A stretch of 64,000 nucleotides of DNA from Limonium bicolor (Eukaryota; Streptophyta; Magnoliopsida; Caryophyllales; Plumbaginaceae): the NCBI GenBank assembly GCA_023374045.1, contig CM041781.1, positions 144,638,982-144,702,981 of the forward strand. The letters are read 5' to 3'. Positions 5,309 to 47,944 of the stretch are shown in pieces. Position numbers and translations under genes: made by a program. The notes beneath the pieces were generated by a model, which was not told where the DNA came from, did no database searches, and worked only from the letters and a program-made list of their open reading frames with translations. Every line of letters starts with the position of its first letter. Within the stretch, counting starts at the first letter, position 1.

Positions 5309-6110
5309 GATGACTGAATTACCGAGCTTAGGAAGTATCGAGTTAGGATTTAGTACTTTGGGTTAAGGGTTGAGTGATAGCGTGAGAGATACGCTAGTTA
5401 GGAACTACCAGTGACTACTGGAAACCTACAATATCCTTCCCACCCTCCACCTCCCTGTATATAACTTGGGGAAACAACGCCAGAGAGATGGAAGTCCACT
5501 CTCATACTCGGGAATACCCGATCTGGCTGTTATTATATACCTTTAGGGTACGGAGAACCTGTCATACGGTAGATCCCGGAAACTGGGAATCCCGGAGACG
5601 GTTTCCATCTAAACAGTGTTAACCGCATTTCATAGCAATGAGTGAGGGATCTTGTATATTGGAGAATAGAATTTCCGGCAACATGGGTCGACATGCAGAG
5701 CAGTCGAGTACAACCAGCTTGCAACGCACCAACCGTGCAACAGGCAAGAAGTGGATTAGTAAAACCCGAGACGAGTGTCTACGGGACCACAGTTGATAAG
5801 TAGTACACCAACGGTATACCAACCGACAAAGGAACTACAACGTAGTGCCCAAACAAGAGACAAGTCTCAGTAACCACGACAAATACGTGGAACGGGCTGT
5901 AAGGAGGATACAATACTAGGACAAAAGGGGTCTCCCAGAATGGGAAGCACCCTAGTTAATGATTATCATGTGAAAACAGTGAGAAGTTACCTAGAAGAGT
6001 TATTATCAAGACAGTGAGATCAGTGAGGGCCAACAAGGCCACTGATGACAGTGCGGGTAAAAACAATACCACAACAGGTATGTGTTAAACTGATAGCCAG
6101 TTAGCATGGC

Positions 6111-24650: not shown

Positions 24651-27506
24651 GATTTGGTTGGTGACCGAGATTGTGCAAGGAAAATCCTAAGTAAGAAAGT
24701 TGGTGAAGCTTGTAAAAGAACAAGGTAAATTGCTTACCTTAAGGTGGTTTATTGTTTAAGGGAATGGGACCTAGATATATGATAAGCTTAGCTTAGGGTT
24801 TACATTAGAAAAGGGCTATATATAACCTAGGAGAAACAATGATTATATTTGAGAACTTGTGATTAAAGAGCAAATGGGAAATGAGATAGTTAGACAATAA
24901 AAAAGTGAATTATAAGAGCATTTATATTTCAATGGGAGCCTTGTTGTGTGTATTTGCAGGTCAAAAGCTAATATATATGGAAATTCAGTGGTTAAGCTTT
25001 ATGTCATTTAAGGGCTTAAGTGCCAAGCATTTTAAGTTTATGCACTATATGATGATGTGGTGTAGTCTTGGTGTAGTTGAGTGTTAAGAAAGTGTGGAAG
25101 GAATTTGGGTGTTCAAGGTTGTTAAATGGTAAAAACCAAATGGTTGGATGTAGAAATATGCTAGGGAATCCATGTCAAAATTTGGTGAGAAAACAAGGAG
25201 TTTGAGGTGTATAAATGAAGTTTGATGACCTCGAAGGTACTAGGAGTTCTTAGGGCTTAAATTGGTGAAAGAAAGTGAACTAGTGTGTTCTTGGGTGTTT
25301 AAAGGACTTAGGAGTCGTCTTGAAGGAATTAGAATTCAAATGAGTGAGTTTGGTGCTCTAGGGATATAGTGGGAGTGTGAATAAGTCTTGTGTAAGTTTT
25401 AGTAAACAAAGGATGAATAATGTCTAGTGAGAATCTAAGTGTAAGCTTGAGGAAAATAGAAGGATTTTGAGTAAGGGAGGTGCTATGGAACAATAATTCT
25501 TAAGAGTGGTGGTAAGGTTTGTGAGGTAATATTTTGGTTAGTTTGAGTTGTAGGTATGATATACCACTTAGAAAACTTAAGGAAAATATTACAAGTGATA
25601 AGAGATTATGTGAGAAATTGGGTTATGAGGTTAGAGAAGGAATTAGGCAAGTTTAAGATGTCATTTTGGTATTAGAATATGCCTAAGATCGTGTGTAAAG
25701 ATTGGGTGATTTATGGATGAAGAGAACAAGTGCAAATACACTTCGAAAAATAAAAAGGGCAAAAATCTGTAGCTGGTCCGGGACTTAAGTCCAGGGTAAA
25801 GTCCCGGACCACACTAAAATAAGGGTCGAGAGTTGCTTCAGCACTATGGTCCGACACTTGAGTCTAGTATAAAGTCCCGGACCACCCCATTAAATCCATC
25901 CGAGAGTTAGGCAAAGGCATGGTAGAACATAAGTTGGTCCAAGATCTAAGGTAAGGACCAAGTCCCGGACCACTCTAAAATTGGTGTTTAAGCTTGTAAA
26001 ATGTTAGGAAATGATGGGGAATGTTAGGTATTAATGTTGTAAAGTTATTTAGGACATGTTTAGAGGGTGTAATGTCTACTAAGGGGTTGAAAAAATATAA
26101 TAGATAATGAGGAAAAGAAGCACTTAAGAATTTAAGTTAAAACCATAAGGACTTAGTGGATAACAATGGGTAAATATTGGTGTTTGGGAAGGTTAAGTGA
26201 ATTATGTTTAGTTGAGCTAAATAATAACCTAGAACTGAATGAATCTTTTAGGACTTGTGAATTGGGACTTGGAAGGAGATAAACAGAACAATCACCGACG
26301 GTGAACGATACAGACTTTCTTGTGACGTGCTTGCTACTGAGGTGTCCCCCGGTTGTGTGCTATCTGCTTATTTGTTATAACTAAGACAAGATAAAGCATG
26401 CAACCGGTTTTTATTGTTCTCGTTGTGAATGTGTTTTCTTTATAGTAACCCACGAGACTTGAGATTAGCTACTAACTAAGCTTAGTACTTATTGAGTTAA
26501 GGTGAGGAATTATATAATGGTACCTATTGGTTAATACCCGTTAAGGTTTAACTAACTCATGGTTTGTAAGATTTTCACTAACTGGAACTTAAGGGGGGAG
26601 TGAGGAACCCGAGACTGACTCCGGTCATGCATGCTAAGGAAAGGGGGTCGGTATCTGAATCAGATCTGACTTCTGCTTAAGGACTTGTCTTCGGAATTGT
26701 TGCCTAGGGTCGAATGTCGGCTCAGCTACCTTGGATTTCCAGTCCAAGGTAGGAGGCATTAAGATGGTGCGGTACGATCACCTAAATCCTAAATTATAAG
26801 ATAAGTTGTTTATTCAACCAATGGAGTTAATAGCTCATTGGCTAGGGTTGCTTTTGACCTGACAAAATAAGCATTGAGATAAGTTACAACCATCTCTATT
26901 AAAAGAACGGTTTGTATACTGAGGTTAAGATAAGGATAAGACTGAGGTGAACTAAGATGGATTAAGGATAAGAGGAACTAGAACTTGAGGAGTTAACTTA
27001 CTGACTCACTTAATAAGGGAGCGCCTTAAGTCGTTCATTTGTGTGTGAACTATGTTTCTTCATCTGTGGATTGTTGTCTTATTGCACTTCATATTATGAT
27101 TGTGTTTCTAATCAACTTCCATGCTATCAACAATTAGTCGTCGTAGCCCCTTTAGCTTGGGGGCCACGAGAGGGTCGTACCAGCATTCTTGTTGACCCCC
27201 TCTGGGGGCTGTTTTTATTTTGCAGGTAAGGGTCCCATGAAGAGTCACCCTGAGAGTAGGGGTGGTTACACTTAGGTTGGGCTTTTATTTTGAGTACGGG
27301 TTGCACCTGTGCACCCGTCTGTTGATATTAAGACCTTGGGTAGTTATGTTGTTGCTCGAGAGACTATGAACTCGGTTGGTGGATGTTTTGGATAGTTTGT
27401 ATAATCGTTTTGGATAAGCGTTGTAAAGATTTAAGGTTCGGTATCTTCTATCGATCAGACCGTGGCAAGGTCCCGGTGTCAGTTTATTCCGCTGCGACTT
27501 TTGTGA
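24651..27506 (+). repeat. 5' LTR of the AlkB element, second piece (3' end deleted)
   Basis: Resumes GATTTGGTTGGTGACCGAG, matching 42150 onward, and follows the 3' LTR to TTTGTGA at 27506 (3' LTR counterpart 52750). The last 52 bp of the LTR are missing. Contains the GTCCGGGAC palindrome cluster and an acceptor-like TTTTATTTTGCAG ending 27225 after the hairpin GACCCCCTCTGGGGGCT. Confidence 0.88.
25773..25973 (+). repeat. Inverted-repeat cluster in the AlkB element 5' LTR
   Basis: About three units of GGTCCGGGACTTAAGTCC...AAGTCCCGGACCAC separated by CCGAGAGTT spacers. The 3' LTR copy (43270-43530) has about four. Confidence 0.85.
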
Positions 27507-27685
27507 CCACCGAGTTAGGCTATGAGTTAAGATATAAGTAATGGGTTAAGGGTGTGAGAAGTTAGAGTGAGTAGAGTCAGATGACCACTATTAAGTGTGG
27601 ATCGTCTTTACTGTCAACGGACGTTATAAATCCTTAAACCGAAACTGTTGTGGATATGAACATAATGTGGGTTGTGCTTATTCAG
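27507..27685 (+). other. Leader of the AlkB element with deleted LTR end and primer site
   Basis: The LTR sequence jumps at 27506/27507 straight to ACCGAGTTAGG, which in LARD-2 lies about 60 bp past the LTR (55319). The LTR 3' end, the primer-binding site and its hairpin are therefore gone. Without a primer site this copy cannot be reverse transcribed. Confidence 0.75.
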
Positions 27686-28324
27686 ATGTCAGGAAGGAGA
27701 GGAGGATGAGGCCATGGCCGAGGAGATGATGCTACTGAGATACCGGGAGGGCAGACGATCGCGGAGATCATGGCTGCCGCGTTAGGGCATATGGGCTATC
27801 AGCCTGGTGTGGGTGCGCCACCTCCACCACCACTGCCTCGGGAACCAAATTGGGTGAAGAGCCTTGCAGACCTTCGACCCGCACACTTTAAGGGCGAGAC
27901 TGATCCCGCCAAGCTTGAGGCGTACATCTCCGAGCTGGAGACCGCCTTCGAGACCCTTGACGTCCCTGCTGGGATCAAGGTGTGCCTGGCTGCATTCTAT
28001 CTGAAAGGGGCAGCGGATGATTGGTAGAAGCTGGTGAGGGCCGAACATGTGGCCAGTCCAGAGTTTAGCTGGGAGTAGTACACCGCACTACTACCAGCTA
28101 AGTACTATCCCGCCCATGTCCAGACGAAGAAGCGCTTGCAGTAGGATGCGCTTAAGCAGACGGACAAGATGACGGTAGACGAGTATTACTCAGAGTTTAC
28201 CGCTTTGCTTCGTCTTCTGCCGGGTCTTTGATATTCAGACCAGATATTGGTGGACCGCTTCTACGGCGGGCTTAGCCATCGACTCCGCTATGGCATGGGG
28301 CCGACGAGTTATACTACCTTGCAG

Positions 28325-28404
28325 GTAATGAGAACAATTAAGATATGAGTAGGTGAGTAAGATTTAGACTTTGAAATAAGAGAAACTAATACTTTGGAAA
28401 GTAG
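28325..28404 (+). other. Putative 80 bp intron 1 in gag
   Basis: Starts GTAATGAG after ...ACCTTGCAG and ends GGAAAGTAG before GAGTGCTATCATGCC. AT-rich, with stops in all frames and an ACTAATAC branch-site candidate 13-20 nt from the acceptor. Joining the flanks gives an uninterrupted gag frame from TTLQ into ECYHAAAK. Confidence 0.7.
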
Positions 28405-28657
28405 GAGTGCTATCATGCCGCTGCTAAGGTTGAGATAACCGTCCAGCTAAGGAACGATGAAAATGCCAAGAGAAAGAATGCCGGGAAGAGTACCGAGCAC
28501 CAAGGGCAAGGTGGGTACAAGAAGCAGAAGTACCAACCTCAAGCCCAGAAGAGTCAGAACCAGAAGTGGATGGAAGGAACTGAGAAGGCTACTGAAGAGC
28601 CACTGAAATTGACTTATGCATATGCTGCTAAGCCCCTGCGCTCAATGGTGCCAAAGG

Positions 28658-28738
28658 GTAAGGAAATGAATATTGAGTGAGTTGAGAGACATTTAGCAAA
28701 CCGTTAAGAATATGAGTACTAATATTGTGAATGATCAG
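28658..28738 (+). other. Putative 81 bp intron 2 in gag
   Basis: Starts GTAAGGAAATG after ...CCAAAGG and ends TACTAATATTGTGAATGATCAG-like sequence at 28738, with an ideal TACTAAT about 14 nt before the CAG. AT-rich with stops; joining the flanks continues the frame from SMVPKG into SETRKEAGGG and the zinc knuckle. Confidence 0.75.
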
Positions 28739-29084
28739 GATCTGAGACTAGGAAAGAGGCCGGTGGTGGCTACCAACGACACTACTATTGTAAGTGGTGT
28801 CGCAAGGACCACCCCGGAGTTGACTGTAAGGGAAACAAGGTGGGGTGTATGGGCACCGAGCTTATGAGTGTTTCCGGAACCCCCAGAGCAGAGCCGTTAG
28901 ACCCGAGATGAAAGGCAAGGGCAAGACCGATCAGGGAGCTGGATCTGACGGTCAGAAGAGAGTGCAGCAAGCTGCAGATAAGAACCCACGGGTAGTCCAG
29001 AAGTTGGGACCCACACTACACATGGTGGACCGAGACGATGAGCCTGAACCCTCATCGAGGCCAGGCACCGCTATAAACCTTTAA

Positions 29085-29198
29085 GTGATAAAATTGCCTG
29101 CTTACCGCATTATCATGCATGCTTAGTGAATAATTGAGTTAGATGAGAATAAGATAAGATTAGAACCTTAAGTAAGATATGACCTATTACCACCTTAG
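29085..29198 (+). other. Intron-like spacer between gag and the AlkB-like ORF
   Basis: Begins GTGATAAAAT directly after the gag stop codon and can end at CACCTTAG (29198). AT-rich, no open frame. The composition matches the two gag introns, but no frame argument decides its borders. Confidence 0.4.
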
Positions 29199-29936
29199 GA
29201 AACTTCAACATTTGCTATCCAATACCTTCAACACCTAACCTGGAAGAGACCGACATCAAGACCCGAGACTTTCCAACCGAACAATGTCAGGTTATCTGCC
29301 CAGGTATGATTTTATTAAGGGGATACCTGACACCAAGCACAAATAGCCATCATTAGGAGATGCAGCCAGTTAGGAGTGGGACCGGGAGGTTTCTATACAC
29401 CGCAGTACCCAGGGGGAGCAAGGATTAAGTTAAAGATGATGTGCTTAGGCAAGGATTGGAATCCGTATGCCAAGACTTACCAGACCACGAGAACACAAGA
29501 TGGAGTCTCACCACCGGGGATACCCGAAGAGTTCCATCCAGTTATTACACAAGTCGTGGAGATCGCTCAGCAGTTGCAAGCTGACCCGATTCCAGACATC
29601 CAAGCAGACATCTGCATTGTGAATTTCGACGAGAAAGACGGACGACTCGGACAACACCAGGATAAGGACAAGACAGCGGAGTCTCTCGAAAGAGGGATAC
29701 CCGTAGTGTCTTGGTCCATTGGAGACGATGCAGAATTCTTGTACGGCGAGCAGAAGAGTGCGGACCGTGCTAATAAGTTAATACTTAAGTTAGGGGATGT
29801 ATTAGTAATGAGAGGGGAATCAAGAATGTTGTACCATGGGATTAAAAGAATCAAGCTGAATACAGCACCGTCAGCAGTAATTAATGCGATGCATATGAGA
29901 CCAGGGCGGTTAAACCTAACCTTTAGACAATATTAG
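29199..29936 (+). CDS. AlkB/ALKBH1-like 2-oxoglutarate-Fe(II) dioxygenase domain inside the retrotransposon
   Basis: The main frame is 29376-29936 (GTG start, 186 codons). It shows GPGGFYTPQY, then MMCLGKDWNP typical of plant ALKBH1-type proteins, then LGQHQDKDKT with the HxD metal ligands (H94, D96), YHGIKRI (distal His, H154) and RPGRLNLTFRQ (R178 and R184, the Arg-X5-Arg pair that binds 2-oxoglutarate). In this family such enzymes oxidatively demethylate N-methylated nucleic acid bases. Asn83 is kept, but the residue two after it, usually Tyr, is Asp (codon GAC). The N-terminal part (29199-29335, with PGMILLRGY) is in another frame, one base off. No intron is seen within it, as expected of a captured cDNA. 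It lies between gag and protease, same strand, in its own frame, ending in TAG. It may be a decayed capture or a gene once useful to the element. Confidence 0.87.
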
Positions 29937-29940
29937 CCAT

Positions 29941-30079
29941 GTAATGTTTAAGTGTGATGTAAGGAAGAAGCACATGTTGTAAACAGGATGGTTATGAATA
30001 AAATAATAGTTTTGTTCGTACTAATTGTTTCGACTCTTGTTATACCATCATTACTCATGAAGCTAGTGAATACAATTAG
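29941..30079 (+). other. Intron-like spacer between AlkB-like ORF and protease
   Basis: Starts GTAATGTTTAAG four bases after the AlkB stop (the same GTAATG donor form as gag intron 1), has TACTAAT at 30019-30025 and can end AATACAATTAG at 30079. AT-rich. A hydrophobic reading here (29988 onward) is probably chance. Confidence 0.4.
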
Positions 30080-33036
30080 GTTATGGACCCGGTACGGAAG
30101 GTGTGCTAAGCATACTTACAGAGGCACACGCCGACGCCAGTGGTACTATCCTCACCGGCACATTTCCGATTAATGGGATTGAGGCATCAATTCTCTTTGA
30201 CTCAGGGGCCTCGCATAGCGTTATCTCGGCATCTTTTGCGAGAAGGTTGGGGCTAGACGCTGATGAGCTACCCGATTTCGCGGTTACGCTCCCATCTAAG
30301 GAGAAGGTTCGTTGCACTCACTACTACCGAGGAGCCATTGTCAGTATTAAGGGGGAAGAATTTTCAGTCAGTTTTATTGAGTTCAAGGAGTTTGGATTCG
30401 ATGTTATCTTCGGGATGAACTAGTTGGAGCGGCATAAGGGTCGTATCCTTTGCGCCGAGCATCGACTGCTGCTCTGGAGTCCGTCTGGGGTAACAATATC
30501 ATACCGCTAGAGGCCCAAAGAGCCTTCAACTAAGATCATCTCCACTATAGCAATGTATAAGGAGTTGAGGAGGAAGGAAGAAGTATATCTCTGGTATGTC
30601 CAGGACATAGAGAGGGACCCCGAGTATGACCCCAACTTACCAGTAGTGTCGGAGTTCCCTGATCTCTTTCCACGGGAACTACTCGGCATGCCACCCACTC
30701 GGGAGGTAGAGTTCACCATCGAGCTGCTACCTGGAACCAGACCTATAGCCAAGGCACCATACCGCATGGCTCCGGCAGAAATGAATGAGCTAAAAGAGCA
30801 GTTGAAATATTTGCTAGATAAGGGATTCATTAGACCGAGCGTATCTCCATGGGGAGCACCAGTTCTCTTCGTGAAGAAGAAGGATGGTAGTCTCCACCTC
30901 TGCATCGACTACAGAGAGTTGAACGCAGTGACTGTGAAGAATAAGTACCCACTACCCCGCATTGATGATCTGTTCGATCAGTTGAAGGGGGCATCCGTGT
31001 TTTCCAAGATTGATCTCTGATCCGGGTATCATCAGATAGCCATTAAGGAGGGAGATATTGAGAAGACGGCATTCCGGATACGATACAGCCACTATGAGTT
31101 TACAGTGATGCCGTTCGGTTTGCCGAACGCACCGGTGAAATTTATGGATCTGATGAACCGCTTGTTCCAGGAGCAGATGGACAAGTCGGTTGTGGTATTC
31201 ATCGATGACATTCTGATATATTCAAAATTGAAAGCTGAGCATGAGGAACATTTGAGGAGAGTGTTAGAGATACTGAGGGAGAACCAGCTATATGCTAAGT
31301 TCTCCAAGTGTGAGTTTTGGCTTGACCAGGTCTCTTTCTTGGGTCATGTAATCTCAGATGCTGGGATCTCGGTGGTTCCAGCAAAGATTGATGTCGTGCG
31401 TACCAGGCCTAGACCAAAGACTATTACCGACATTCGGAGCTTTCTTGGTCTGGCAGGCTACTACCGGAGGTTTGTTAAGGATTTCAGTTCGCGAAGCCGA
31501 TGATCAGTCTGTTGAAGAAAGATGCACCGTTCGTATGGACAGCTGATTGTGAGAGTTCGTTCCAGAGTTTGAAGGACTCACTGACCACTGCACCGGTTCT
31601 GACCATTCCAGACGGTACGGAGGGCTTTGAGGTTTATTGTGACGCATCCGGTAGAGGGTTGGGTTGCATGCTCATGAAGCATGGTAATATGGTGGCTTAT
31701 GCCTCACGCCAGCTGAAGAAACATGAGGAGAACTACCCCACTCATGACTTAGAATTGGAAGCAGTGGTGTTCGCCTTGAAGATATGGCGCCACTACTTAT
31801 ATGGGGTTAGTGTGATGATCTACACCGATTATAAGAGCTTGAAATACATATTCACTCAGAAAGAGTTGAATCTTTGACAGAGGAGATGGTTAAAATTTTT
31901 GAAGGACTATGATACTGACCTCCAATACAAAGAAGGGAAGGCCAATGTTGTAGCGGACGCCCTGAGTCATCGAGCACACTCACTCCATTCGCTAGTTTCT
32001 TTCTCCAGCTTGGTTGATGAGGTGTGAGAGGCTCAGAGGACAGATGAGTATATGAGTGAAGTCAAACAGAAGCTGACAGAGGGTACCTTTGAGAGTAAAA
32101 ATACGACTTTCGACTGCATGATGATGATCTGATCAGACTTAAGGGTCGGTTATGCATACCACGAGGCATCACATATTTGAAAGACCGTATACTTAGATAG
32201 TCACACTGTTCTTCAGTTTCCATCCATCCAGGAGCCTCTAAGATGTATAAAGACATGAAGAGATACTTCTGGTGGTCGGGGATGAAGACAGATGTTACCG
32301 AGTTCGTCTTGAGGTGTCTCACATGCTAGAAGGTGAAATTTGAGCACTGACGACCGGGCGGAATGGTACAGTCTATGCCAGTTCCGGAGTGGAAGTTTCA
32401 TGATATCTCCATAGACTTCGTAATCGGACTCCCACCTGCTAGGGGAGGTCTGAACATGATATGGGTGATGGTGGATCGCCTTAGCAAAGTAGCCCGATTC
32501 ATACCGATGAAGGATACTTGGAAGGTAACTAAGTTGGCTGAACAGTTTGAGAAGGAAATTATGAGACATCACGGGATACCGAAGACCATAGTGTCAGATA
32601 GAGATACCAGATTCCTTTCGAGGTACTGGAGAGCTACCAGAGAAGCGTTGGGTACAGAACTGAAGCTGAGTACCGCGTTCCATCCTCAGACAGATGGTCA
32701 GACTGAGCGTACGATTCAGACACTCGAGGACATGCTAAGGGCATGTGCCTTAGACTTCAAGGGCAGTTGGATTGACAAGTTGCATCTGATCAAGTTTTCT
32801 TATAACAATAACTATCATACTTCGATCAAGATGACACCTTTTCAAGCGTTGTACGGTAGACCATGTTGTACACTGCTCGACAGGGATGAGTCGAGTGAGA
32901 CGGTCATCATAGGACTAGAATACTTAGAACATGTTAAGGCTGAATTTCAGCAAATCAGGGAGAATATGAAAGCTGCTCAAGATAGGCAGAAGTCGTATGC
33001 TGATGTTCGATGATGAGACCTGGTTTTCGCAGTGGG
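30070..33036 (+). pseudogene. pol: pol of the AlkB element: protease, reverse transcriptase, RNase H, integrase (5' part)
   Basis: Protease: LFDSGASHSVIS and VIFGMN (30103-30423). RT (30553-31500): [40 protein letters not shown] and the catalytic [11 protein letters not shown], ending [12 protein letters not shown]. RNase H (31500-31980): [33 protein letters not shown] (usual His is Tyr) and VADALS. Integrase (32130-33013): zinc-binding IHPG...CLTC, then DDE core DFVIGLPP, VSDRDTRF and TDGQTERT. Stops at 30421, 31018, 31875, about 32025, about 32329 and 33011 are TAG or TGA, mostly explainable as C-to-T or G-to-A changes. Frameshifts lie near 31495 and 32095. A minus-strand element with GTGGG duplications cuts it after 33036. 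Confidence 0.93.
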
Positions 33037-34540
33037 TGCAAACTGTAGATTTGACCTATAAAAATCTAAGAAATAATCCTAGAAAATAATAAATCAAAAG
33101 ACAGTCGGGTTGCAAATATCCCGGTCAGTGTAGTAGAGGTTGTGAGACCAGGTATCGAACCGTGGGACTATGTGAAAAATAATCTAATCCTAGCAAAGGT
33201 AATAATTCAGGGGGTTTGTTTTTAAACAAATTATAAATAATAAAATTAAGCATAAAAAGTTGACTGATAAAAAGTTTAATTAAGAGAAAGATAATAAAGC
33301 GGGACTCTGGGTTCATGTTATACTCGTTTGATTAATTATGCTAATCTATCGGTTGATTAAGAATAACTAGGCAAATTCATTTTAGAGTCTTAAGGACTAA
33401 ATCCTAGAACCTGAAGACCACGTTTACCAGAACATCCAAGGTCTGATATGGACTCAAGCAAAACACATGTAAACGGCTAAATAAAAAGAAATATATTTTG
33501 CATCTGAAATACTAGACCTCCTCAATCCGATTCAGTTTTTCGACAAACATAACAATTAATACGACCTATCTGTTTATCACGGATCTGATCAAAATAAATT
33601 TTGTAAAGCAATTCACTAAACTCATGAAATTTATTAAAAAGCGAGAGCATAACATCAATTGTATCAAAGTATAATTAACTTAAAACCAGTAGTATATATT
33701 GCATAATTAATACAAACTTATAATAACCATTCCTAGAGTATAAATATTATAGCCTAGCATATTAAATAGATAAACAGAAACATGTGTCGTACAAATCATT
33801 TGTAGTCGACTCCTGGATTTGTTCAGCTATTTGTATACGTCAGACTAGAGGTGGATATGGTGGAATGAAAAGAAAACAAAATGGAGAAGACGTGAGAAGA
33901 GAAATGGGATGGACGTGTGGTTTGTGGTGTATAGATAATGATAGATGATGGTCCATCCTCATTAGGAGAGCAGTAATGGGTTTATATAGCAGAGGAAATG
34001 GGGTAAAAAGGAAGGGGGTGTCGGTGTGAAAAGATAAAATATATTTATCTTTTCACACAATGTCGATCAGCCCTGATTGCTGTAAAAAACGTTGTGTCCG
34101 AACCAGTGTCCGAACTAGTGGTTCAGACGATAATTATTTTGCTTCTAAAATACGGTGCCGACATGCGTCCGTGTCTGGCGTCCGTGTTTTTGTCCCCGGA
34201 CGTGACTATGGACACGGGGCTACGTCCGCCCAAATATCCACGGACGTGACTAATAAAGTGGCGCGCTGTTCTCTTACGGCGTCCACGGTTCTGTCCGCCC
34301 AAATATCCACGGACGTGACACGGTAGTAAGGCTAGCGTGCATGTTGTGTGACTCATTTTAATCCCTGTTTGATATATCCATTTATTAGGCCTTTTTCCTA
34401 CATTTAACACATATAATACATCAGTTTATATCAAAACATAATTATAGGAAAAACGCAACATAAGTGAGAAACATTACTTAAAATGCTGCAAATTATAAGG
34501 TGATTAAACATTAATAAGTGTATATGTTTCGCACTTATCA
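33037..34540 (-). repeat. Tat-like element, LTR at its 3' end
   Basis: Paired with 38664-40205. Contains a cluster of GTCCG/CGGAC inverted motifs at 34086-34320, including CGTCCGCCCAAATATCCACG repeats. Confidence 0.9.
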
Positions 34541-36002
34541 AACTTCCACACACTTAAGCTTTTGCTTGTCCTCAAGTAAATAAGGAGTGTAACTATCTCT
34601 AAGTCGTAGTATAAAACAAGATTAAATAAGTGTAGAAGGGAATTAGGCAAAGTGACAATTGCAAGAATAATTCCGCTCTCAGAAGTAGGTTTTTGCAAAC
34701 AGTGAAAAAGAGCAAATTTATAAAAGCATAGAAAAACTAGATTGCAGAATACAAGTTAGATTAGCCTGGTATTTTCCTCCAATTTCAGCTTTCTAACCCG
34801 GGATGACGAGGGGTGTGAAGTAATGCCTTATTCTGCAATACCTTTCAACACCTCGTACTCATGTTTATAAATAAAAACTGCAATTTATTGCTTTCATTTT
34901 TTTTGAATGCAAAAATGTATATATAAAACAAACATTTTTTTATATTGCAATATTTTTCTGTACCCTAGACTTTTCTCTCTATCCTTGTAGCGGTGCTGGG
35001 TCTTCTATCCCAGATCACGAGACCTTAGGTAGATAGGTGTTAAGGCACCCCAGAGGACTTAATATCCGGATAGACGAGGCCTGTTTTTTTGTTTAGAAAA
35101 ATTTATAAACAGCGGAGTACCTTGTTTTTATCTTTTTCTTTCCTAACTTTCCAATCATTTCTAAAATCCCAAGCTAAGCTAAAATGGTTTTTACAATTAG
35201 CAGATCTATCGTATTTTCAGTGAAAATAGAGTATTTTGATTAAGAATAGTTTTATACAAACTCCTTTAAACAAAATGATTCTCAGTTGTCACTTGGCTTA
35301 ATTTCAAACACTTCTACAATTATTTTATCTCATTTTTTTAATGTTGGCATTTAGAGTAGCAAAAAGCGAGTGTGGCATTAACGAACAACTGGCATATTTT
35401 CAAGGAAAGGTCTCTACTTCCTCACACTTGAGAGGAATAATCTCCTCATTGTTCAAAATAAAATCAAGAAAAGGACCTTTCAAATTATGCCAGACTCATG
35501 AAGGATTAAATATTTAATGAAGAAGCTTTAACGTAAGATAGGTTGAACATTAATATAATAAAGAAGGAATTGAGACTCCCCTGTTATTGTAGATTGAGGA
35601 AGGTGCCCTTCCTCACACTTAAATCTTTGGCAAGGGTGAAACGTTCCTCACACTTAAGGTCACGCAAGTGTCCAAACGGGAAGAAATCAAAATTGCCAGA
35701 ACAAATTAGGTTGCTTTCCATATGTGAGTTCAGCTATATGTTGAATATAGAATTTATTTGGAAAAGAAAAACCTGTATAGCCAGCAGAACTCAAGTGGCA
35801 CATAAATATAAGATGTAGATGGAGTAAGAGAAAAAACATAAATAAAAATGCATTGCATAAAATAAAAGCATTAGAAATATAAAAAGATAGGAGAACTGTT
35901 ACCTCCTGATTACAAAAAGTATGACAAGGTTAAAACAGTACGAGTCTACAATAAGTTAGTGAACAAGAGAGATATATAAAACTAAATAAAACGAAAGAGA
36001 TA
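34541..36002 (-). other. Tat-like element, non-coding 3' part
   Basis: Nothing recognised apart from the purine-rich tract next to the LTR (minus AAGTGTGTGGAAGTT, about 34541-34555). AT-rich with repeated TTCCTCACACTTAA motifs around 35405-35665. Confidence 0.6.
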
Positions 36003-37336
36003 TCACTGCGGTGTCTGTGGTGGCTGCTGCAGTCCCTGGCCTATCTGAGCGAGGAGATGCTGTATGAGCTAAGTCGTCCGATCCTGCTGCTCATTCGTCC
36101 GTGCAAGCTGCTGAGCTGTCTGTGCCTGCAAATCCTCACTCTGGTCTAAGCGCTCAGTCATATGTGTCCAGGCCTCGCGGAGCGCAGCTGCTCAGTCAGA
36201 ATCCTCTGCTACGTCTGCTTAAAACTCTCAAACCGCTGCTGCATCTGAGGGAAGGCCTGAAGCTGAGTCTGTAGCTCTGAAGGGATAGGAGGTATCGGAA
36301 CAGGAGCTGGAGCCTGCATCGTGGTGATCGTCGGCTCGTAGGGCTCAGCTCCCTGTGCTGTGGAGGGTGGCTCGGGATTAGATGAAGGTGTGGCTCCTAT
36401 AGTAGGCCCTGCTGCAGTGGAGGATCCAGTGGAAGACTGGCCAGTGCGACCTCTGAACCAGGTACCGTCATCTAAGCGCATGAAGCCCCAGCGCCTCATA
36501 GTATGCAACGTGACTGGGCGCTCTCCCGTCCGGAGCTCTAATCCATGTGTGACTCCCTCTGGAAGGACAGAGCAAAGGTGGTGCTGAATGAAGAAGGGAA
36601 AAATAGGCGTGATCTTCTTCTTCTTCGTCCGCAGATAGTACACCACCTTATGTAGCTGGCTAAACATGATGTGTGGAATAGAGACGCACTGAGCGGGTGG
36701 AGATGGCGAGAGGAAGTAGTCCAATAAAGCGCAATCCTCATCAGAAGCATCGATCGTGGCATGGGGCCGGATCTGATGACTAAGGATCTCTAAGAGTAGT
36801 CTCTGTAGCAAGGTGGGGAAACTCGTGAAAGAGAGGACATCCTTGTCCTCCTCCCCTCTACGTCGGGTTATCAGACCTACATCCTGGAGCCACCTCGTCT
36901 TTGATCTGCGCAGGTGATCCTCTATAAATCCTCTGATAAGGTCTGGGCTATCCGGAGCCTGCAGTATAGTACAGAAGGACTCTGGTGTGATCTCGACAGG
37001 GAGATGGCAGATGAAAGAAGTAATGCTCTGGTTGCCCGTCTAGGCATTCGCATAGAACTCTCTGACCATGGCTGGAATGAAGAGTCCCTTACCCATCTTT
37101 AGGACCCGTGAAAGTCCAAAACTAGAAAACAGGGTGTCCACCCCTGTCACCTCGATCACTTCAGGCGCTATTCGCCTCTCCATCACAAAATCCTTACCCT
37201 GATCATACCAGGCACGAGCCTCCGCAGAAATAAAACCATCATCCCAAAGAGTCGGCTGGGGAGGAGGTGCAGAAGAGGACGCACCGGGGCAATTGCCCCT
37301 AGTAGCACCAGAGTGTCCACCACGAGTGCGAACCAT
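36003..37336 (-). pseudogene. Putative plant transposon protein (Transposase_32-like), broken
   Basis: Starts ATG at 37336 (MVRTRGGHSG) and runs minus to TGA at 36003. Parts: basic/Gly start; a domain with AWYDQGKDFVMERRI, EVIEVTGVDTL and REFYANA; a second half with LLEILSHQIRPH, KVVYYLRTKKKK and HTMRRWGFMR; a Pro/Thr-rich linker; and a Gln-rich coiled-coil-like tail. This resembles the protein of unknown function that Pfam names 'putative plant transposon protein', common in non-autonomous gypsy elements. One in-frame TAG at 37037-37039 splits an otherwise open frame to 36209; after that the frame shifts and has another TAG. About 440 residues if read through. The family name is from pattern recognition only. 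Confidence 0.65.
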
Positions 37337-38644
37337 ACTAATAAATTTTGAAATTGAAATGTAAATAAATAATGACAGAAAATTAAATTAATATCAAACA
37401 GAGCACTACGATGCAGTGGCATAACAACTTAGAATTTTATTTACATTTCAATTTCAAATTTTTTTTATATATACACGTCCGGGTCTGGGGGGGCCGGACG
37501 CAGACCCGGACAGAGCGAAGAACCCTAAATCGACAACGCGTTTCCAGATTGTTTCAATTTTACCCCAAATTCACACAAATCCAGCCAGAAACTCGCAAAT
37601 CTCACATAATACTTCATGTTTTCGTATTTCAACAACAAATTAACACCAAAATCCACCTAATAACTACCTAATCTACTTCAAATCGACAGAAACTGAATTA
37701 AAAACGCAAAAAAAAATTGAGCCTGTTTCGAGTTTGGGTTTTTGAATTCGAAATTCGGAGAAAGGAGGAAAGGCGGTGAGGAGGAAAGCGCGGTGGTGCT
37801 GTGTTGGTCGCCGGCGTCGGAGCTGCGGTGCTGGCCTTGGTTGCGTGTCGGTGGTGGTGCTGGTTGTGGCGGGCGGTGTCGCTGAAGGAGGAGGGCGTCG
37901 GGTGTTTAAAAGGTAAAAGAAGAATAAAATTTGGGAGTGCAGAGTTTGATATGGGCGCGTCCGCTCTGTGTCCGCACAAATATGGGTAGACGTCTCTCTC
38001 GCGTCCGTGGTTCTGTCCACACAAATAGGGCCGGACGTCTCTAATTGTGACAATTCCATCCGCGGTTTAGTCGTGCCCGCTTTTCTTGCGTCCGGCCTTT
38101 TAAGGTAGGACGTGAGTTCCGTTTTTATTATTTTTTTATTTGATTCGATTTTATAAATTTAGACAAATTAATTATTTAAGCACACATGAAATATAATAAT
38201 AAATGGTAATCTGAAATTAAATAAACTTTAAGAGAAATAGAAATAAATGTAGTTAAATGAAAATAGTAACATAAAATAAAGAAAAAGTATAGAATTAAAT
38301 TGCTGGAATTTAAATGACAGTGGAAATTTAAATGACTGGAAAATAAATAGCAAAATTGAAATGACTGAAATTTAAAGGACAATGGAAATTTAAATGACTG
38401 GAAAATAAATAGCTGAATTTAAATGACAATAAAATAAAGAGCTGAATTTAAATGACAGAAATTAAATGTCAGAAATTAGATGTCAGAAATTAGATGTCAG
38501 AAATTAGATGTCAGAAATTAGATGTCAGAAATTAGATGTTAGAAATTAAATGTTTGAAATTAAACAAACAACAAAATAATATAGACAAAATATTATATTA
38601 TAGCAAGTGAATTATCCGGGGCTTAGGGACTAGAATAAATCAAG
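37337..38644 (-). other. Tat-like element, 5' leader
   Basis: No gene. Holds a CpG-rich block (about 37478-38120: GTCCGGGTCTGG, GGCCGGACG, GCGTCCGTGG) resembling the LTR palindrome cluster, then AT-rich tandem repeats (38300-38560). Confidence 0.65.
38300..38560 (+). repeat. Two short tandem repeat types
   Basis: About 38300-38460: degenerate GAAATTTAAATGACTGGAAA / ATAAATAGC units. About 38460-38545: six or more copies of the 14-mer TCAGAAATTAGATG. Confidence 0.85.
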
Positions 38645-38661
38645 TCCCCGCAACGGCGCCA
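38645..38661 (-). promoter_or_regulatory. Primer-binding site (tRNA-Asp type) of the Tat-like element
   Basis: Minus strand TGGCGCCGTTGCGGGGA, two bases after the LTR end. The usual tRNA-Asp complement has one more C. Confidence 0.8.
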
Positions 38662-38663
38662 AT

Positions 38664-40205
38664 TGCAAACTGTAGATTGACCATAAAAAAGCTAAGAAAT
38701 AATCCTAGAAAATAATAAATCAAAAAGACAGTCGGGTTGCAAAATCCCGGTCGGTGTAGTAAGTAGAGGTTGTGAGACCAGGTATCGAACCGTGGGACTA
38801 TGTGAAAAATAATCTAATCCTGCAAAGGTAATAATTATGGGGGTTTTGTTTTTAACAAATTTAAAAAATAAAAATTAAGCAGAAAAAGTGACAGATAAAA
38901 GTTTAATTAAGAGAAAGATAATAAAGCGGGGACTCTGGGTTCATGTTATACTCGTCTGATTAATTATGGCTAATCTAACCGGTGATTAAGAAATAACTTG
39001 GCAAATTCTTTTAGAGTCTTAAGGATAAATCCTAGAACCTGAAGACCACGTTTACCAGAAACATTCAAGGTCTGATATGGACTCAAGCAAAACACATGTA
39101 AACGGCTAAATAAAAAGAAAATTATATTTGCATCTGAAATACTAGACCTCCTCAATCCGATTCAGTTTTGACAGACATAACAATTAATACGAACCTATCT
39201 GTTTATCATGGATCTGATCAAAATAGATTTCGTAAAGCAATTCACTAAACTCATGAAATTTATTAAAAAGCGATAGCATAACATTAATTGTATCAAAGTA
39301 TAATTAACTTAAAACCAGTAGTATATATTGCATAATTAATACAAACTTATAATAACCATTCCCAGAGTATAAATATTATAGCCTAGCATATTAAATAGAT
39401 AAACAAAAATATGCGTCGTACAAATTATCTATAGTCGACTCCTGGATTTGTTCTGCTATTTGTATACGTCAGACTAGAGGTGGATATGGTGGAATGAAAA
39501 GAAAACAAAATGGAGAAGACGGGAGAAAAGAAATGGGATGGACGTGTGGTTTGTGGTGTATAGATAATGATAAATGATGGTCCATCCTCATTAGGAGAGC
39601 AGTAATGGGTTTATATAGCAGAGGAAATGGGGTAAAAAGGAAGGGGGTCTCGGTGTGAAAAGATAAAATATATTTATCTTTTCACACAATGTCGATCAGC
39701 CCTGATTGCTGTAAAAAACGTTGTGTCCGAACCAGTGTCCGGACCAGTGGTTCGGACGATAATTATTTTGCTTCTAAAATACGGTGCCGACATGCGTCCG
39801 TGTCTAGCGTTTGTGTTTTTGTCCCCGGACGTGACTAGGGACACGGGGTTACGTCCGCCCAAATATCCACGGACGTGACTAATAAAGTGGCGCGCTGTTC
39901 TCTTGTGGTGTCCGCGGTTCCGTCCGCCCAAATATCCACGGACGTCTCTAATCCTGTCCGCCCAAATATCCACGGACGTGACACAGTAGTAAGGCTAGCG
40001 CGTGCATGTCGTGTGACTCATTTTAATCCCTGTTTGATATATCCATTTATTGGGCCTTTTTCCTACATTTAACACATATAATACATCAGTTTATATCAAA
40101 ACATAATTATAGGAAAAACGCAACATAAGTGAGAAACATTACTTAAAATGCTGCAAATTATAAGGTGATTACACCTTAGTAAGTCTATATGTTTCGCACT
40201 TATCA
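38664..40205 (-). repeat. Tat-like element, LTR at its 5' end
   Basis: Partner of 33037-34540, with a third CGTCCGCCCAAATATCCACG unit in its cluster (39722-39985). Differences between the two are largely one-base indels. Confidence 0.9.
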
Positions 40206-40628
40206 GTGGGCGACCGGGTATTTCTACGAGTATCACTGATGAAGGGTGTATTCAGATTTGGGCAGAAGGGCAAATTGAGCCCGAAGTTTGTTGGTCCTTA
40301 TGAGATTACGGATTGGGTGGGCCCAGTCGCTTATAGGTTGGATTTACCTGCTGATCTGGGTAAAGTGCATGATGTTTTTCATGTTTCACAGCCAAAGAAA
40401 TACATGCACCACCCCTCCCATGTGTTAGTGCCTAAGAGGTTGACGTTAGAACCGAATATGAGATCCGTGGAGATTCCTCATAGGATCTTGGATAGTAAGA
40501 CTAGGGACACTCGCCATAAGTCAGTGCGACTAGTGAAGGTTCTCTAGTCTAACCAGGATGTCGAAGAGGCCACGTGGGAATTAGAAGATAAGATGAGATC
40601 GAAGTACCCTTCGTTATTTACTGACTAG
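40206..40628 (+). pseudogene. pol: pol C-terminus of the AlkB element (integrase tail and chromodomain-like end)
   Basis: Continues the integrase interrupted at 33036: VGDRVFLRVS, then [31 protein letters not shown], then an in-frame TAG (40545-40547, a likely TGG in the family's VLW position) and VEEATWELEDKM...YPSLF, ending TAG at 40626-40628. The GPY/F-type module followed by an EATWE end is typical of Tekay/Del chromoviruses. Confidence 0.9.
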
Positions 40629-40936
40629 ATTGTCTATATAGGGTGGGGCATACCCCTTTTTAAAGGGGGTAGAGCATCCTCGCTTTGAGTTAGTAAACGA
40701 ACATGTTAGTCATTTTGTTTGGTTGGTGTAAGATGTGGTTTTATGTAAGTTGTTACACTTGTGGTAAGTTTAAGATATGTGTCATACTTTTGTATGTTAT
40801 GGTGGCAGACCTTTGAGTCTTGTGATGTGTAAATGTGAATATAAGATATGATGTTAAAATTAAGTAAATTGAGTATCGGGAATGATTAAGTACATATGTG
40901 AACTTTGGGGGCAAAGTTCTTTTAAGGGGGGTAGAT
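40629..40936 (+). promoter_or_regulatory. 3' untranslated part with two polypurine tracts
   Basis: An internal tract TTTTAAAGGGGGTAGA (about 40658-40673) follows the short GGGT...ACCC hairpin. The terminal one (40920-40935) follows a perfect hairpin GAACTTTG, loop GGGG, CAAAGTTC (40900-40919) and abuts the 3' LTR. Confidence 0.75.
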
Positions 40937-43900
40937 TGAAATACCACAAACCTATATATGGTGTTTAGATGATAAAATAAGATCTAGGAAGGCTAAATAA
41001 TGCCTTAGAACATTAGGAAACAATTTAAACCAAAGAAAACACAAGGAAACACCATAAGAGCAATTTAGGCAAAAATGTGCTCTAAGCATGGAGTAACTTG
41101 GGTTAGCACCCAAATATCATTCTTAGACCTTAGTAACATCCTAATGGTCATGTTAAATCAATTACCAAAGAAAACCAAGCTCAAAAACAAGTTAAAACAC
41201 AAATTGTGCTTTAAGGACTCTTAAAGCACATTTTTGAAAAATTGTCTTAGAAAGGGGTTTTAAGTGGCTAAATGCCCATGATTAGTCCTTAATCAACTTG
41301 TGTACTACTTAGTATCCCATTAGGAAGTCTAAATCAAAGGGAAATAAAAAATTTCACAAATATGTGCACTAGTTTGTGAATAGTAACCAAATAGTGTCTA
41401 GTTTAGTCTTTAGTCAACTAAGTTTAATTAAATGGTCAAACAAGACCATGACCAGCCTTAATTATAAGGGGGCCAGTGAGTCACCGCATGGATAAGTAAG
41501 TTAGTAAAATAAGAGGGGAAAAGTAACAAGTTATTATTTACTTTTGAAACAAATATCTCATTTATGCTACCTCTCTCCTCCTTTCTTCATTCTCTCTTCT
41601 TCCTCACCGATTTCTTCTGCTCTCTTTCTTCTTCATTCACGTAGAAGACAGCTCCATGCTAGCTCCACCTTCACTTGCTTGCCAAACATTCATCTTAGCT
41701 CCGAAATCAAAACCAAGCACATATTCCTCTTAGTTAGCTCAAGCTCTTTTCCTATCCTTTCAAATCTCCAAGAGCTTCATTTCGTGCCAAGCCAAACCGC
41801 CATTATAGGAGGAAACACAAGCTTGAGGAGTCCATTAGCTTCTCCATTCTATTAAGGTAAAGAATATGTAAGAAAAACTAGGTTTCCACCACTCCTTCAC
41901 ATGTCCGAAAAATTCTAACTCATGGGGCTTCATTTTTATGCCTTGTTCCAGCTTGTTTTCTATTCTCCAAGGGCTAGAGGAGGTCCTTATTGATTCATAT
42001 CCAAGCCTACCTTAAGACTTCAAGGTAAAATACTTATTTAAATACCTTAAAAGACATTTTTTAACCTAGGGTTTGCTCTTTAAGGTTAGTGTATTGTCTA
42101 GCACTCATTAGAGTCATTGGATATTGATTAGAACATTGGCAAGGAGAATTTGGTTTGTGACCGAGATTGTGCAAGGAAAAGCCTAAGTAAGGAAGTTGGT
42201 GAAGCTTGTAAAAGAACAAGGTAAATTGCTTACCTTAAGGTGTTTTATTGTTTAAGGGAATGGGACCTAGATATATGATAATCTTAGCTTAGAGTTTACA
42301 TTAGAAAAGGGATATATATAACCTAGGAGCAACAATGATTATATTTGAGAACTTGTGATTAAAGAGCAAATAGGAAATGAGATAGTTAGACAATAAAAAG
42401 GTGAATTATAAGAGCATTTATATTTCAATGGGAGCCTTGTTGGGTGTATTTGCAGGTCGAAGGCTAATATATGTGGAAATTCAGTGGTTAAGCTTTATGT
42501 CATTTAAGGGCCCAAGTGCCCAGCATTTTAAGTTTATGCACTATATGATGATGTGGTGTAGTCTTGGTGTAGTTGAGTGTTAAGAAAGTGTGGAAGGAAT
42601 TTGGGTGTTCAAGGTTGTTAAATGGTAAAAACCAAGTGGTTGGATGTAGAAATATGCTAGGGAAGCCATCTCAAAATTTGGTGAGAAAACAAGGAGTTTA
42701 AGGTGTATAAATGAAGTTTGATTACCTAGAAGGTACTAGGAGTTCGTAGGGCTATAATTGGTGAAAGAATGTGAACTAGTGTGTTCTTGGGTGTTTAAAG
42801 GACTTAGGAGATGTCTTGAAGGAATTAGAATTCAAATGAGTGAGTTTGGTGCTCTAGGGATATAGTGGGAGTGTGAATAAGTCTTGTGTAAGTTTTAGTA
42901 AACAAAGGATGAATAATGTCTAGTGAGAATCTAAGTGTAAGCTTGAGGAAAATAGAAGGAGTTTGTGTAAGGGAGGTGCTGTGGAACAATAATGCTTAGG
43001 AGTGGTGGTAAGGTTTGTGAGGTAATATTTTGGTTAGTTTGAGTTGTAGGTATGATATACCACTTAGAAAACTTAAGGAAAATATTACAAGTGTAAAGAG
43101 ATTATGTGAGAAATTGGGTTATGAGGTTAGGGAAGGAATTAGGAAAGTTTAAGATGTTATTTTGGTATTAGAATATGCCTAAGATCATGTGTAAAGTTCG
43201 GGTGATTTATGAATGAAGAGAACAAGTGCAAATACACTTAGAAAAATAAAAAGGGCAAAAATCTGAAGGTTGTTCGTGACATAAGTCCAGAGTAAAGTCC
43301 CGTACCACACTAAAATAAGGGCCGAGAGTTGCTTCAGCACTATGGTCCGGGACTTGAGTCTAGTATTAAGTCCTGGACCACCCCATTAAATCTATCCAAG
43401 AGTTAGGCAAAGGCATGGTCCAGGACTTAAGGTCAGTACAAGGACCCGGACCACTGCCAAAAATGACCCGAGAGTTACAACATGAGTTGGTCCGGGACCT
43501 AAGGTAAGGACCAAGTCCCGGACCACTCTAAAAATGGTGTTTAAGCTTGTAAAATGTTAGGAAATGATGGGGAATGTTAGGTATTAATGTTGTAATGTTA
43601 TTTAGGACATGTTTGGAGGGTGTAATGGCTACTTAGGGGATGAAAAATATAATAGATAATGAGGAAACGAAGCACTTAAGAATTTAAGTTAAAACCATAA
43701 GGACTTAGTGGATAACAATGGGTAAATATTGGTGTTTTGGAAGGTTTAGTGAATTATGTTATGTTGAGCTAAATAATAACCTAGAACTGAATGAATGTTT
43801 TAGGACTTGTGAATTGGGACTTGGAAGGAGATAAATAGAACAATCGCCGACGGTGAACGGTACAGTCTTTTTTGTGACCTGCTTGCTAACGACGTGTCCC

Positions 43901-46605: not shown

Positions 46606-47944
46606 ATGCCTCCTCGTAGAACACCAGTGACCCCTCAGGGAGATGTTGCGGATGCAGTGCATCATTTTGTGGCGCAGTTGATGCAGACGATGGCTGCAGT
46701 AGCTGGGGGAGCTGGTGGCGCAGGCCCAGCAGGGGCGAACGTTGTGGGAGGCCGAGTTAGAGCCCTCCAAGAGTTTATGAAGCTGAAGCCGCCTTCCATC
46801 GACGGCTGTGGCAACCCTCAGGAGGCGAGCCACTAGATTACAGAGGTGGAGGATCTGCTGAGAGTGATGAGCTCAGAGGATGACCGGAAGGTCAACTTCA
46901 TCGTTCCTCTTTAAGGGGGAGGCGAAGGAGTGGTGGCGTATGGTGATGGGTAGGCATCCCCAGCCTTGGACCTGGGATCAGTTCTGCTTGGAGTTCAACA
47001 AGCAGTTCTATCCGGATGTCTACAAGGATCAGAAGATTAATGAGTATAACCGGCTGCGTTAGGGGAGAGACATGACGGTTGAGGAGTACGTGCGGAAGTT
47101 TGTGACTCTCTCAAAGTATGCCCCGGAGCCAGATGAGCATAGGAAGGCCCGTAAGTTTGAGAGTGGGCTCAGACCAGACATCAGGTCCGCAGTGACACCC
47201 CTTCGTCACCGGACCTTCAGAGATGTGGCAGATGTCGCTCTACTGGTAGAGGCCGACATCAGGGGCAGACAGGCTGGCAAGGACCACAAGGGGAAGAGGC
47301 GTGCTGGAGAGCCTCGGAAGAAGGAGGTTGCTCATTCTCAGAAGAAGCAGTCCTATGGAGATCGCCGGGGAGCTTCTTCATCTTCGTCAGCTAGGGCGAA
47401 GTGTAGGTCTTGTGGTCACTCCCATTCTGGTAGGGAGTGCTACAAGAAGACTGGTGCCTGCTTTAAGTGCGGGTCGATGGAGCACCGGATTGCTCAGTGC
47501 ACTCAAACATCAGGTAGAGGCTCAGGAGATAGAGGCACCGGTTTAGATTCAGGGGCGAGGTCCGACTAGAAGAAGCCTCAGACTCAGGCCCAGGTTTATG
47601 CAATGGCTGGAGAGCGTGATCGAGCTGGTGATCGCATCATCTCAGGTATCCTCCAGATCCATTCTCAGGACGTGTTTTGTCTGTTTGACTCTGGAGCTAC
47701 GCACTCCTTTATCTACTGTGATTCGTTGGGTAGACTTGAATTGACTACCGTGCCTAATGAAGTAGATTTATGTGTGAGTAGTTCTTTGGGTGGGATTGCT
47801 CCTTGCATTCTTGACTCTGTGTGTAAGGCTTGTCCCATAGTAGTTCGGGACAAGACCTTTTGTGCTGACCTCATCCCAATGCGGATGGCCTGTTTTGATG
47901 TGATCTTGGGCATGGACTGGCTAGCAGAGCTTCCAGGAGATTAA
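46606..47944 (+). pseudogene. gag: gag-protease of the RT-less element
   Basis: Starts ATG 46606 (MPPRRTPVTP). Capsid motifs: FMKLKPPSIDG, FLFKGEAKEWW, FNKQFYPDVYKDQK, MTVEEYVRKFVTLSKYAP, RKFESGLRPDI. Two zinc knuckles: CRSCGHSHSGREC and CFKCGSMEHRIAQC. Protease: CLFDSGATHSFI and VILGMDWLA. Breaks: TAG at 46834-46836, a frameshift near 46900-46910 and TAGs at 47060 and 47567. No intron-like gaps are seen here, unlike gag of the AlkB element. The protease end runs straight into RNase H sequence near 47925. Confidence 0.9.

Follow-up and report, generated by a model that had tools for sequence, protein, structure and literature searches.

The genome of Limonium bicolor contains a high-copy Ty3/gypsy LTR retrotransposon with an AlkB domain as an alternative exon inside the gag-protease intron, and gag can be spliced either to pol or to this exon. 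Position, copy number and coding constraint of the domain, the in-phase splice sites, and the joins of gag exon 3 to protease or to AlkB were observed in genomic DNA. This chromovirus has probably captured a plant ALKBH1-type demethylase, which it would express by alternative splicing as a Gag fusion that aids its replication.

Organization of the element

The window, i.e. the whole stretch of DNA that was analysed (64 kb), contains one copy of the element with the following parts, all on the forward strand:

24660..27498 (+): 5' LTR remnants, three matched pieces, 77-81% to the LTR of an intact copy
27503..27694 (+): leader, LTR to gag, 87% to the leader of copy L013
27686..28324 (+): gag exon 1 (capsid part), with a frameshift and stops in this copy; donor CAG/GTAATG
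28325..28404 (+): intron 1, GT..AG in 12 of 13 aligned copies, i.e. all that keep the region
28405..28657 (+): gag exon 2, from the aligned copies
28658..28738 (+): intron 2, from the aligned copies
28739..29064 (+): gag exon 3, including the zinc knuckle, which has a short deletion in this copy; donor GC in the window copy and GT in the 12 others
29065..29198 (+): intron 3 (gag to AlkB); exon 3-AlkB joins read at 7 of 12 places
29199..29936 (+): AlkB (ALKBH1-like) exon with its own stop codon; PF13532; same place in 12 other loci
29937..30079 (+): AT-rich stretch from the AlkB stop to the protease acceptor, 30.5% GC in L013
30080..33013 (+): pol exon encoding protease, RT, RNase H and the integrase core, with a broken frame and interrupted by a nested insertion
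40205..40937 (+): pol end and 3' non-coding part past the nested insertion, 88% to L013
40937..44232 (+): 3' LTR remnants, two pieces, 75% and 81% to the LTR of an intact copy

The intron removed for Gag-Pol spans 29065-30079 and consists of intron 3, the AlkB exon and the AT-rich stretch. Gag exon 1 matched the natural spliced copy L040 at 91% (amino acids) over 27725-28324. In the pol exon, RVP_2, RVT_1 and RT_RNaseH scored above their Pfam cut-offs, and rve reached 28.5 bits, below its cut-off of 32.6. Part of the stops that the first-pass annotation had counted in gag belongs to the introns at 28325-28404 and 28658-28738. The nested insertion in pol (33014-40204) has two direct repeats 5.63 kb apart, with 96% identity over 300 bases. 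Remains of another, distantly related Ty3/gypsy element, comprising the end of gag, RNase H and integrase and lacking most of RT, were located at 46898-49454 (+).

The Ty3/gypsy domain order gag-PR-RT-RH-IN is present in the element family. Five loci were searched for LTRs with 10 kb added on either side; four of them had LTR pairs, each LTR being about 4.1 kb long (3.7 kb matched in C4) and 95.2-97.5% identical to its partner, and none was found in the extended locus C2/L017. The LTRs end in TG..CA, the PBS TGGTATCAGAGC, which we take to be a match to initiator tRNA (tRNA-iMet), lies past the LTR in three loci, and a purine tract (aaggggggtag) was found close to the 3' LTR in four. Target-site duplications (TSDs) of 5 bp, all different (GGAGG, ATCTC and ATAAT), were present in three of the four loci, read with the LTR end of C7 and C8 shifted by one or two bases to TG..CA. 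The complete element measured about 14.6 kb in the C7 copy. A chromodomain (PF00385) was detected at the integrase end of copy L010 with an E-value of 2.4e-5 and 24.6 bits, just under the gathering score of 25.1. The AlkB-bearing element is a Ty3/gypsy LTR retrotransposon of the chromovirus group, and the first placement of AlkB in sense between gag and protease of such an element is right. Judged by its C-terminal motif, it may belong to the Tekay (Del) clade.

The AlkB exon

An AlkB-type domain had been called at 29199-29936 (+) from the letters alone, with a profile search named as its check. The Pfam profile search returned PF13532 (2OG-FeII_Oxy_2) with an E-value of 4e-37 and 128.8 bits (cut-off 31.2) as the sole family above cut-off for the open frame 29331-29936 (+; 201 codons); the 250-residue AlkB of copy L010 reached 158 bits against the same profile. 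The only AlkB match within the 64-kb window was at 29183-29930. Position 29199 directly follows an acceptor AG present in all 13 aligned copies, and 29936 is the final base of the AlkB stop codon. The reading frame had been described as stop-free, which applies to 29331-29936, whereas the first ~45 codons of the window copy lie in another frame, with a frameshift near 29330. In the same copy the cofactor-stabilising Tyr is replaced by Asp (NFY to NFD) and GLHQD by GQHQD, unlike the 15 other copies compared; the AlkB of the window copy is therefore damaged.

The nearest solved structure by sequence was 5xeg (E 2.9e-73), and the best E. coli AlkB entry had an E-value of 1.2e-23. An AlphaFold2 model of the L010 domain, built from 38 sequences (mean pLDDT 90.9, pTM 0.89), had its best Foldseek PDB matches to OsALKBH1 (5xoi/5xeg; 50% identity, TM 0.82/0.80 by model length). 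Residues H159, D161, H219, N148, Y150, R243 and R249 (L010 numbering), which presumably serve in binding iron and 2-oxoglutarate, aligned one to one with rice ALKBH1. Ligand roles in an AlkB-type 2-ODD domain are also given in passages of PMC9289625. The HxD motif, the second His and the R-x5-R pair were present in the window ORF as noted at first pass; the three iron ligands (two His, one Asp) and the Arg pair were found in 16 of 16 AlkB copies, window copy included, and the stabilising Tyr in 15. With its 2OG-Fe(II) domain, HxD..H, R-x5-R and ALKBH1-like relatives, the element AlkB is classed by sequence features as ALKBH1-like, unlike the ALKBH5/9/10-like AlkB of the orchid element of 2022.

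It appears improbable that the domain is retained for RNA binding or as a structural module, or that its substrates are host nucleic acids only, with catalysis being of no use to particles. Catalytic activity is predicted from sequence, and the orchid AlkB binds RNA besides demethylating it, according to passages of PMC9289625; the retention of the ligands across the copies and their alignment with the rice enzyme argue against a module of this kind.

Copy number, placement and selection

The genome searched comprised 2.92 Gb with 8 large contigs of 136-540 Mb. A 27-mer of AlkB occurred at 16,569 places (8,322 + 8,247; up to 3 mismatches; reversed control 0) and a 27-mer of the protease at 5,807, so that the AlkB word was 2.9 times commoner; either the protease word decays faster, or there are AlkB-bearing derivatives without this protease. 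At 70 of 100 listed exact AlkB places, all on C1, the exact protease 27-mer followed 451-519 bp downstream on the same strand. Along C1, AlkB places were also spaced ~10.4 kb apart on one strand at 1430289-1461668 and 49203345-49244943, as expected for head-to-tail arrays with common LTRs.

In the own-genome search, the best 150 of 49,107 candidates were scored, a sample biased toward intact copies; 130 of these 150 (window copy counted) were without internal stop, and a chance ORF was rejected on this count. Twelve other loci were picked from matches already listed with a 251-codon open AlkB frame, so that their open frames are no independent count; in 12 of 12, gag pieces precede AlkB and the protease exon follows it, starting at the same acceptor. 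The first-pass annotation had asked whether copies at other target sites carry AlkB here, a lone AlkB copy among sisters without it meaning a one-off insertion. AlkB was found in the same place in copies with the TSDs GGAGG, ATCTC and ATAAT; these three copies and the 16,569 places exclude a one-off event.

Pairwise dN/dS across copies (Nei-Gojobori, ratio of sums), also proposed at first pass, was 0.120 for AlkB in 16 copies chosen by AlkB likeness. The values for the other domains were 0.090 for RT (15 copies), 0.089 for RNase H (11), 0.140 for the gag capsid (15) and 0.213 for protease (15). In seven copies chosen by the splice join, where frame damage is more frequent, AlkB gave 0.179. AlkB is under purifying selection and, by these values, its constraint is about equal to that on the proteins of the element itself.

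Relatives of the AlkB domain

The search for AlkB relatives gave 466 sequences. Names among the 120 listed were DNA N(6)-methyladenine demethylase, ALKBH1C/1D-like, abh1 and AlkB-like, and all relatives with telling names among these 120 came from flowering plants. A tree was calculated from 4 element copies and 59 of the 120 listed relatives (63 rows), without ALKBH5/9/10 reference, by a quick method with SH-aLRT support only and midpoint rooting. The element copies and four unnamed sequences (P0001-P0004) were split by a branch of 99 from 55 others, 44 of which were from named plants. Of the comparison with host ALKBH1 and viral AlkB proposed earlier, this tree covers the listed relatives, and it placed the element AlkB in a clade of its own with P0001-P0004. 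In viral contigs searched for AlkB relatives, two stretches fitted a pattern and none was confirmed.

A profile search with the group of element and P0001-P0004 gave no further member as close among the best 120 of 1,664 matches: P0001-P0004 scored 425-367 bits, followed by P0241 with 349 (43% identity) and then by 294. P0241, a 478-aa dioxygenase protein of Artemisia annua, was the named host protein with the highest score against the element profile, in spite of only this identity. The AlkB of P0002 (62%) and the pol of P0122 (75%) both came from an ENA contig of 26,561 bases, and P0122 had the highest identity among the listed proteins covering at least 90% of the query. Apparently this is one contig, in which case the pairing of AlkB with this pol would exist in another genome.

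Plant LTR elements do carry pieces of host genes. That AlkB is such a passenger fragment in one copy has nevertheless next to no probability, and it was refuted by the copy number, the same position in 12 loci, the dN/dS of 0.12, and the separate clade with four outside sequences, one of them apparently sharing a contig with a related pol.

Splice sites and spliced genomic copies

Splice sites were derived from 13 copies, that of the window and those of the 12 loci, aligned across gag. All 12 copies keeping the region of intron 1 have donor 1 GT and acceptor 1 AG, L010 having other sequence there. Intron 2 was missing in L014; the remaining 12 copies had donor GT in 12 and acceptor AG in 10 cases. 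Donor 3 GT was kept in 12 of 13 copies, the AlkB acceptor AG in 13 of 13 and the protease acceptor AG in 12 of 13. The GC content in L013 was 29-32% in introns and 46-58% in exons. The end of exon 3 is in phase 1, and two codon bases stand at the start of the AlkB exon and of the protease exon alike; donor 3 can thus be joined in frame to either of them.

If spliced RNAs are reverse transcribed at times, exact exon joins are expected in the genome. The exon 3-protease join (23 bases) was found at 12 genomic places, 8 of them exact (control 0). Among the 11 assessable gag-protease copies, with L039 left out of the scoring, intron 1 was absent in 7 and intron 2 in 8: L031, L032, L035, L036, L037, L040 and L042 had lost both, L034 was without intron 2 only, and L033, L038 and L041 kept both. 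These copies are not all independent, as L035 and L036 are neighbours and L031 has its intron-2-less form in common with L014. The latter copy is AlkB-bearing, lacks intron 2 and reads through in frame at 3800-3900, with the exon 2/3 junction of L031; these two may belong to a subfamily descended from a partly spliced copy. The fully spliced copy L040 encodes Gag, zinc knuckle, protease and RT in one frame with a single stop, located in RT, a reading that is independent of the search pattern. Its LTR starts about 70 bp from the place predicted for a complete element, which suggests copying by the element's own machinery; the piece examined at its 3' end had no match to the LTR end. On C7, a spliced pair was observed at 199518920 and 199528126, 9.2 kb apart and thus shorter by about the removed introns and AlkB.

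The exon 3-AlkB join was found at 12 genomic places as well, against 0 and 1 with the reversed control. Of these places 9 were exact and 2 had one mismatch; the last, with two mismatches, was no better than the lone control match. Seven of the 12 places were read, and all seven had the join and kept the stretch between AlkB and protease. Intron 2 was gone in 3 of 6 assessable gag-AlkB copies and intron 1 was kept in 5 of 5 reaching it, so that a complete Gag(1-2-3)-AlkB frame was present in no copy seen. One AlkB-protease join, from a plausible donor past the AlkB stop, was tried and had 0 matches in the genome. In the gag frame, the joins read ..SSR(P/L)G-(Y/H)(G/E)LG in 12 of 12 and ..SRPG-(S/R/N)FNI in 7 of 7 copies; this frame is given by the search patterns and adds no evidence of its own, and L032, L038 and L044 are shifted nearby. 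Two kinds of join at one donor, 12 and 12, were thus read indirectly, from DNA copies of RNA, and such copies record alternative splicing without any RNA data. The first description of AlkB as lying between gag and protease was correct as to position, but the domain is not simply between them: it is an alternative exon.

Gag-protease copies without AlkB exist, and several related pol proteins of other plants hold gag and pol domains in one protein. Both would suit an older, intron-less and AlkB-less sister group into which introns and AlkB were inserted later, an explanation that we regard as very improbable. In a protease-RT tree of 27 rows (15 AlkB-bearing, 12 joined; L017 left out because its protease-RT piece was unalignable), the joined copies required 10 changes, no fewer than with shuffled labels, and 5 of these 10 were forced by well-supported branches. 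At several points of the tree, joined copies were neighbours of AlkB-bearing ones (L040 with L013, 98/95), and a single clade of joined copies was rejected (p-AU 3.5e-10), and with it an AlkB-less sister clade. The scatter and this rejection point to separate events instead of a single AlkB-less lineage. Furthermore, only intron 3 with AlkB is gone from three copies, which still have introns 1 and 2, while seven lack all, and a sister group would leave the gag-AlkB joins at the same donor unexplained.

That AlkB is translated as a cistron of its own, starting at an internal Met in the way suggested for the orchid ORF2, with the gag-AlkB joins being rare accidental splices, is considered unlikely. 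A conserved Met (codon 42 of 251) makes separate translation possible; it lies at the Pfam domain's edge and is the first Met in 9 of 12 copies. The gag-AlkB joins, moreover, are few. A cistron of this kind, however, does not fit the retention of the AlkB acceptor in all 13 copies and of the donor in 12, the phase of both with gag, the conserved stretch ahead of the Met (FNICYP..), which is present in the relative P0002 too, and the removal of intron 2 in half of the assessable gag-AlkB copies.

Proposed mechanism

According to the favoured model, a high-copy chromovirus LTR retrotransposon would have taken up a plant ALKBH1-type demethylase, and its single primary RNA would have three fates: unspliced genome, Gag-Pol or Gag-AlkB. 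Gag-Pol would come from fully spliced RNA, with introns 1 and 2 and the 1-kb AlkB-holding intron removed. Joining of exon 3 to AlkB would give a fusion ended by the stop codon of AlkB itself, and the most likely product, as predicted from the genomic joins, is a Gag-AlkB fusion carrying the demethylase into the particle. Among the points against the fusion are the GC donor and the damaged AlkB of the window copy and the rarity of the joins (12 and 12), although their comparison with 16,569 AlkB places is one between searches with different mismatch limits.

Gag would bring AlkB into the virus-like particle, where it may demethylate a nucleic acid of the replication cycle, i.e. genomic RNA, primer tRNA or single-stranded cDNA; alternatively, it may act outside the particle on host nucleic acid. 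Demethylation would help the element to replicate. Protection from methylation-based control, as put forward at first pass, is a putative function of the domain. Passages of the cited papers report that plant ALKBH1 orthologues act on 6mA, particularly in single-stranded DNA (PMC12973404), with action on 6mA also reported for the rice orthologue (PMC7758401), and that ALKBH1 acts on m1A58 of tRNA, on which the stability of initiator tRNA depends (PMC7475180). These substrates and the PBS-matched initiator tRNA primer make cDNA and primer tRNA candidates besides m6A of genomic RNA. We suggest, tentatively, that the splice-made Gag fusion could deliver the demethylase to the particle, and that its targets there may be 6mA of single-stranded cDNA or the m1A58 of the initiator tRNA, and not m6A of mRNA. 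If true, the element would encode an editor of its own primer or cDNA, and the Gag fusion would be the physical route of the enzyme to the replicating nucleic acid.

Comparison with known systems

The element AlkB shares with plant ALKBH1 (OsALKBH1, 5xeg/5xoi) 50% identity over the domain and the aligned ligands; it differs from host ALKBH1 by its separate clade and by the absence of the long N-terminal part of many host proteins. AlkB domains occur in some plant RNA viruses, and there as here AlkB is carried by a replicating parasite, a likeness that concerns the kind of carrier. AlkB of plant RNA viruses is also named in passages of PMC9289625.

In BARE1, EVADE and Ogre, splicing tunes Gag against Pol, as stated in passages of PMC3735527, PMC12786077 and PMC6317226. 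The Limonium element has in common with the short-Gag RNAs of BARE1 and EVADE and with the gag-pol intron of Ogre that alternative splicing near the gag-pol boundary sets the protein made. Splicing in these elements gives Gag alone or joins parts of the polyprotein, whereas in the Limonium element an alternative acceptor would add an enzyme domain to Gag; the passages on BARE1, EVADE and Ogre in the same papers contain no enzyme-adding Gag splicing.

The first-pass annotation knew of no plant LTR element with this layout. AlkB in a Ty3/gypsy element is in print (PMC9289625), but with a different layout, to judge from its passages; among the open-licence papers listed, passages on AlkB in a plant LTR element were found in this paper only, plus a review citing it (PMC12786077). 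According to the passages of PMC9289625, 2-ODD domains were present only in LTR elements of two Phalaenopsis species among 121 angiosperm genomes surveyed, and the recombinant orchid AlkB protein had m6A demethylase activity in vitro. As described there, Gypsy_Pa_2799 and its kin resemble the Limonium element in being high-copy Ty3/gypsy elements with an AlkB-superfamily 2-ODD that keeps its cofactor ligands. Gypsy_Pa_2799 stands on the Tat/Ogre side, measures 25.5 kb, has a tRNA-Arg PBS and gag-pol in one ORF, and carries an ALKBH5/9/10-like AlkB at the C-terminus of a separate 565-aa ORF2. The Limonium element, in contrast, has a chromodomain, a length of ~14.6 kb, the PBS TGGTATCAGAGC and an ALKBH1-like AlkB exon between gag and protease that is spliced to gag; an ALKBH5/9/10-like AlkB in a separate ORF, which defines the Phalaenopsis family, was not found in it. 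Lineage, layout and AlkB class being different, this looks like an independent capture. Taken alone, the orchid element might have been seen as a curiosity. The Limonium element, from another Ty3/gypsy lineage and with another AlkB class, is a second case and suggests that plant LTR elements capture demethylases repeatedly and that selection favours such captures, which would argue that adenine methylation of RNA or DNA limits transposons.
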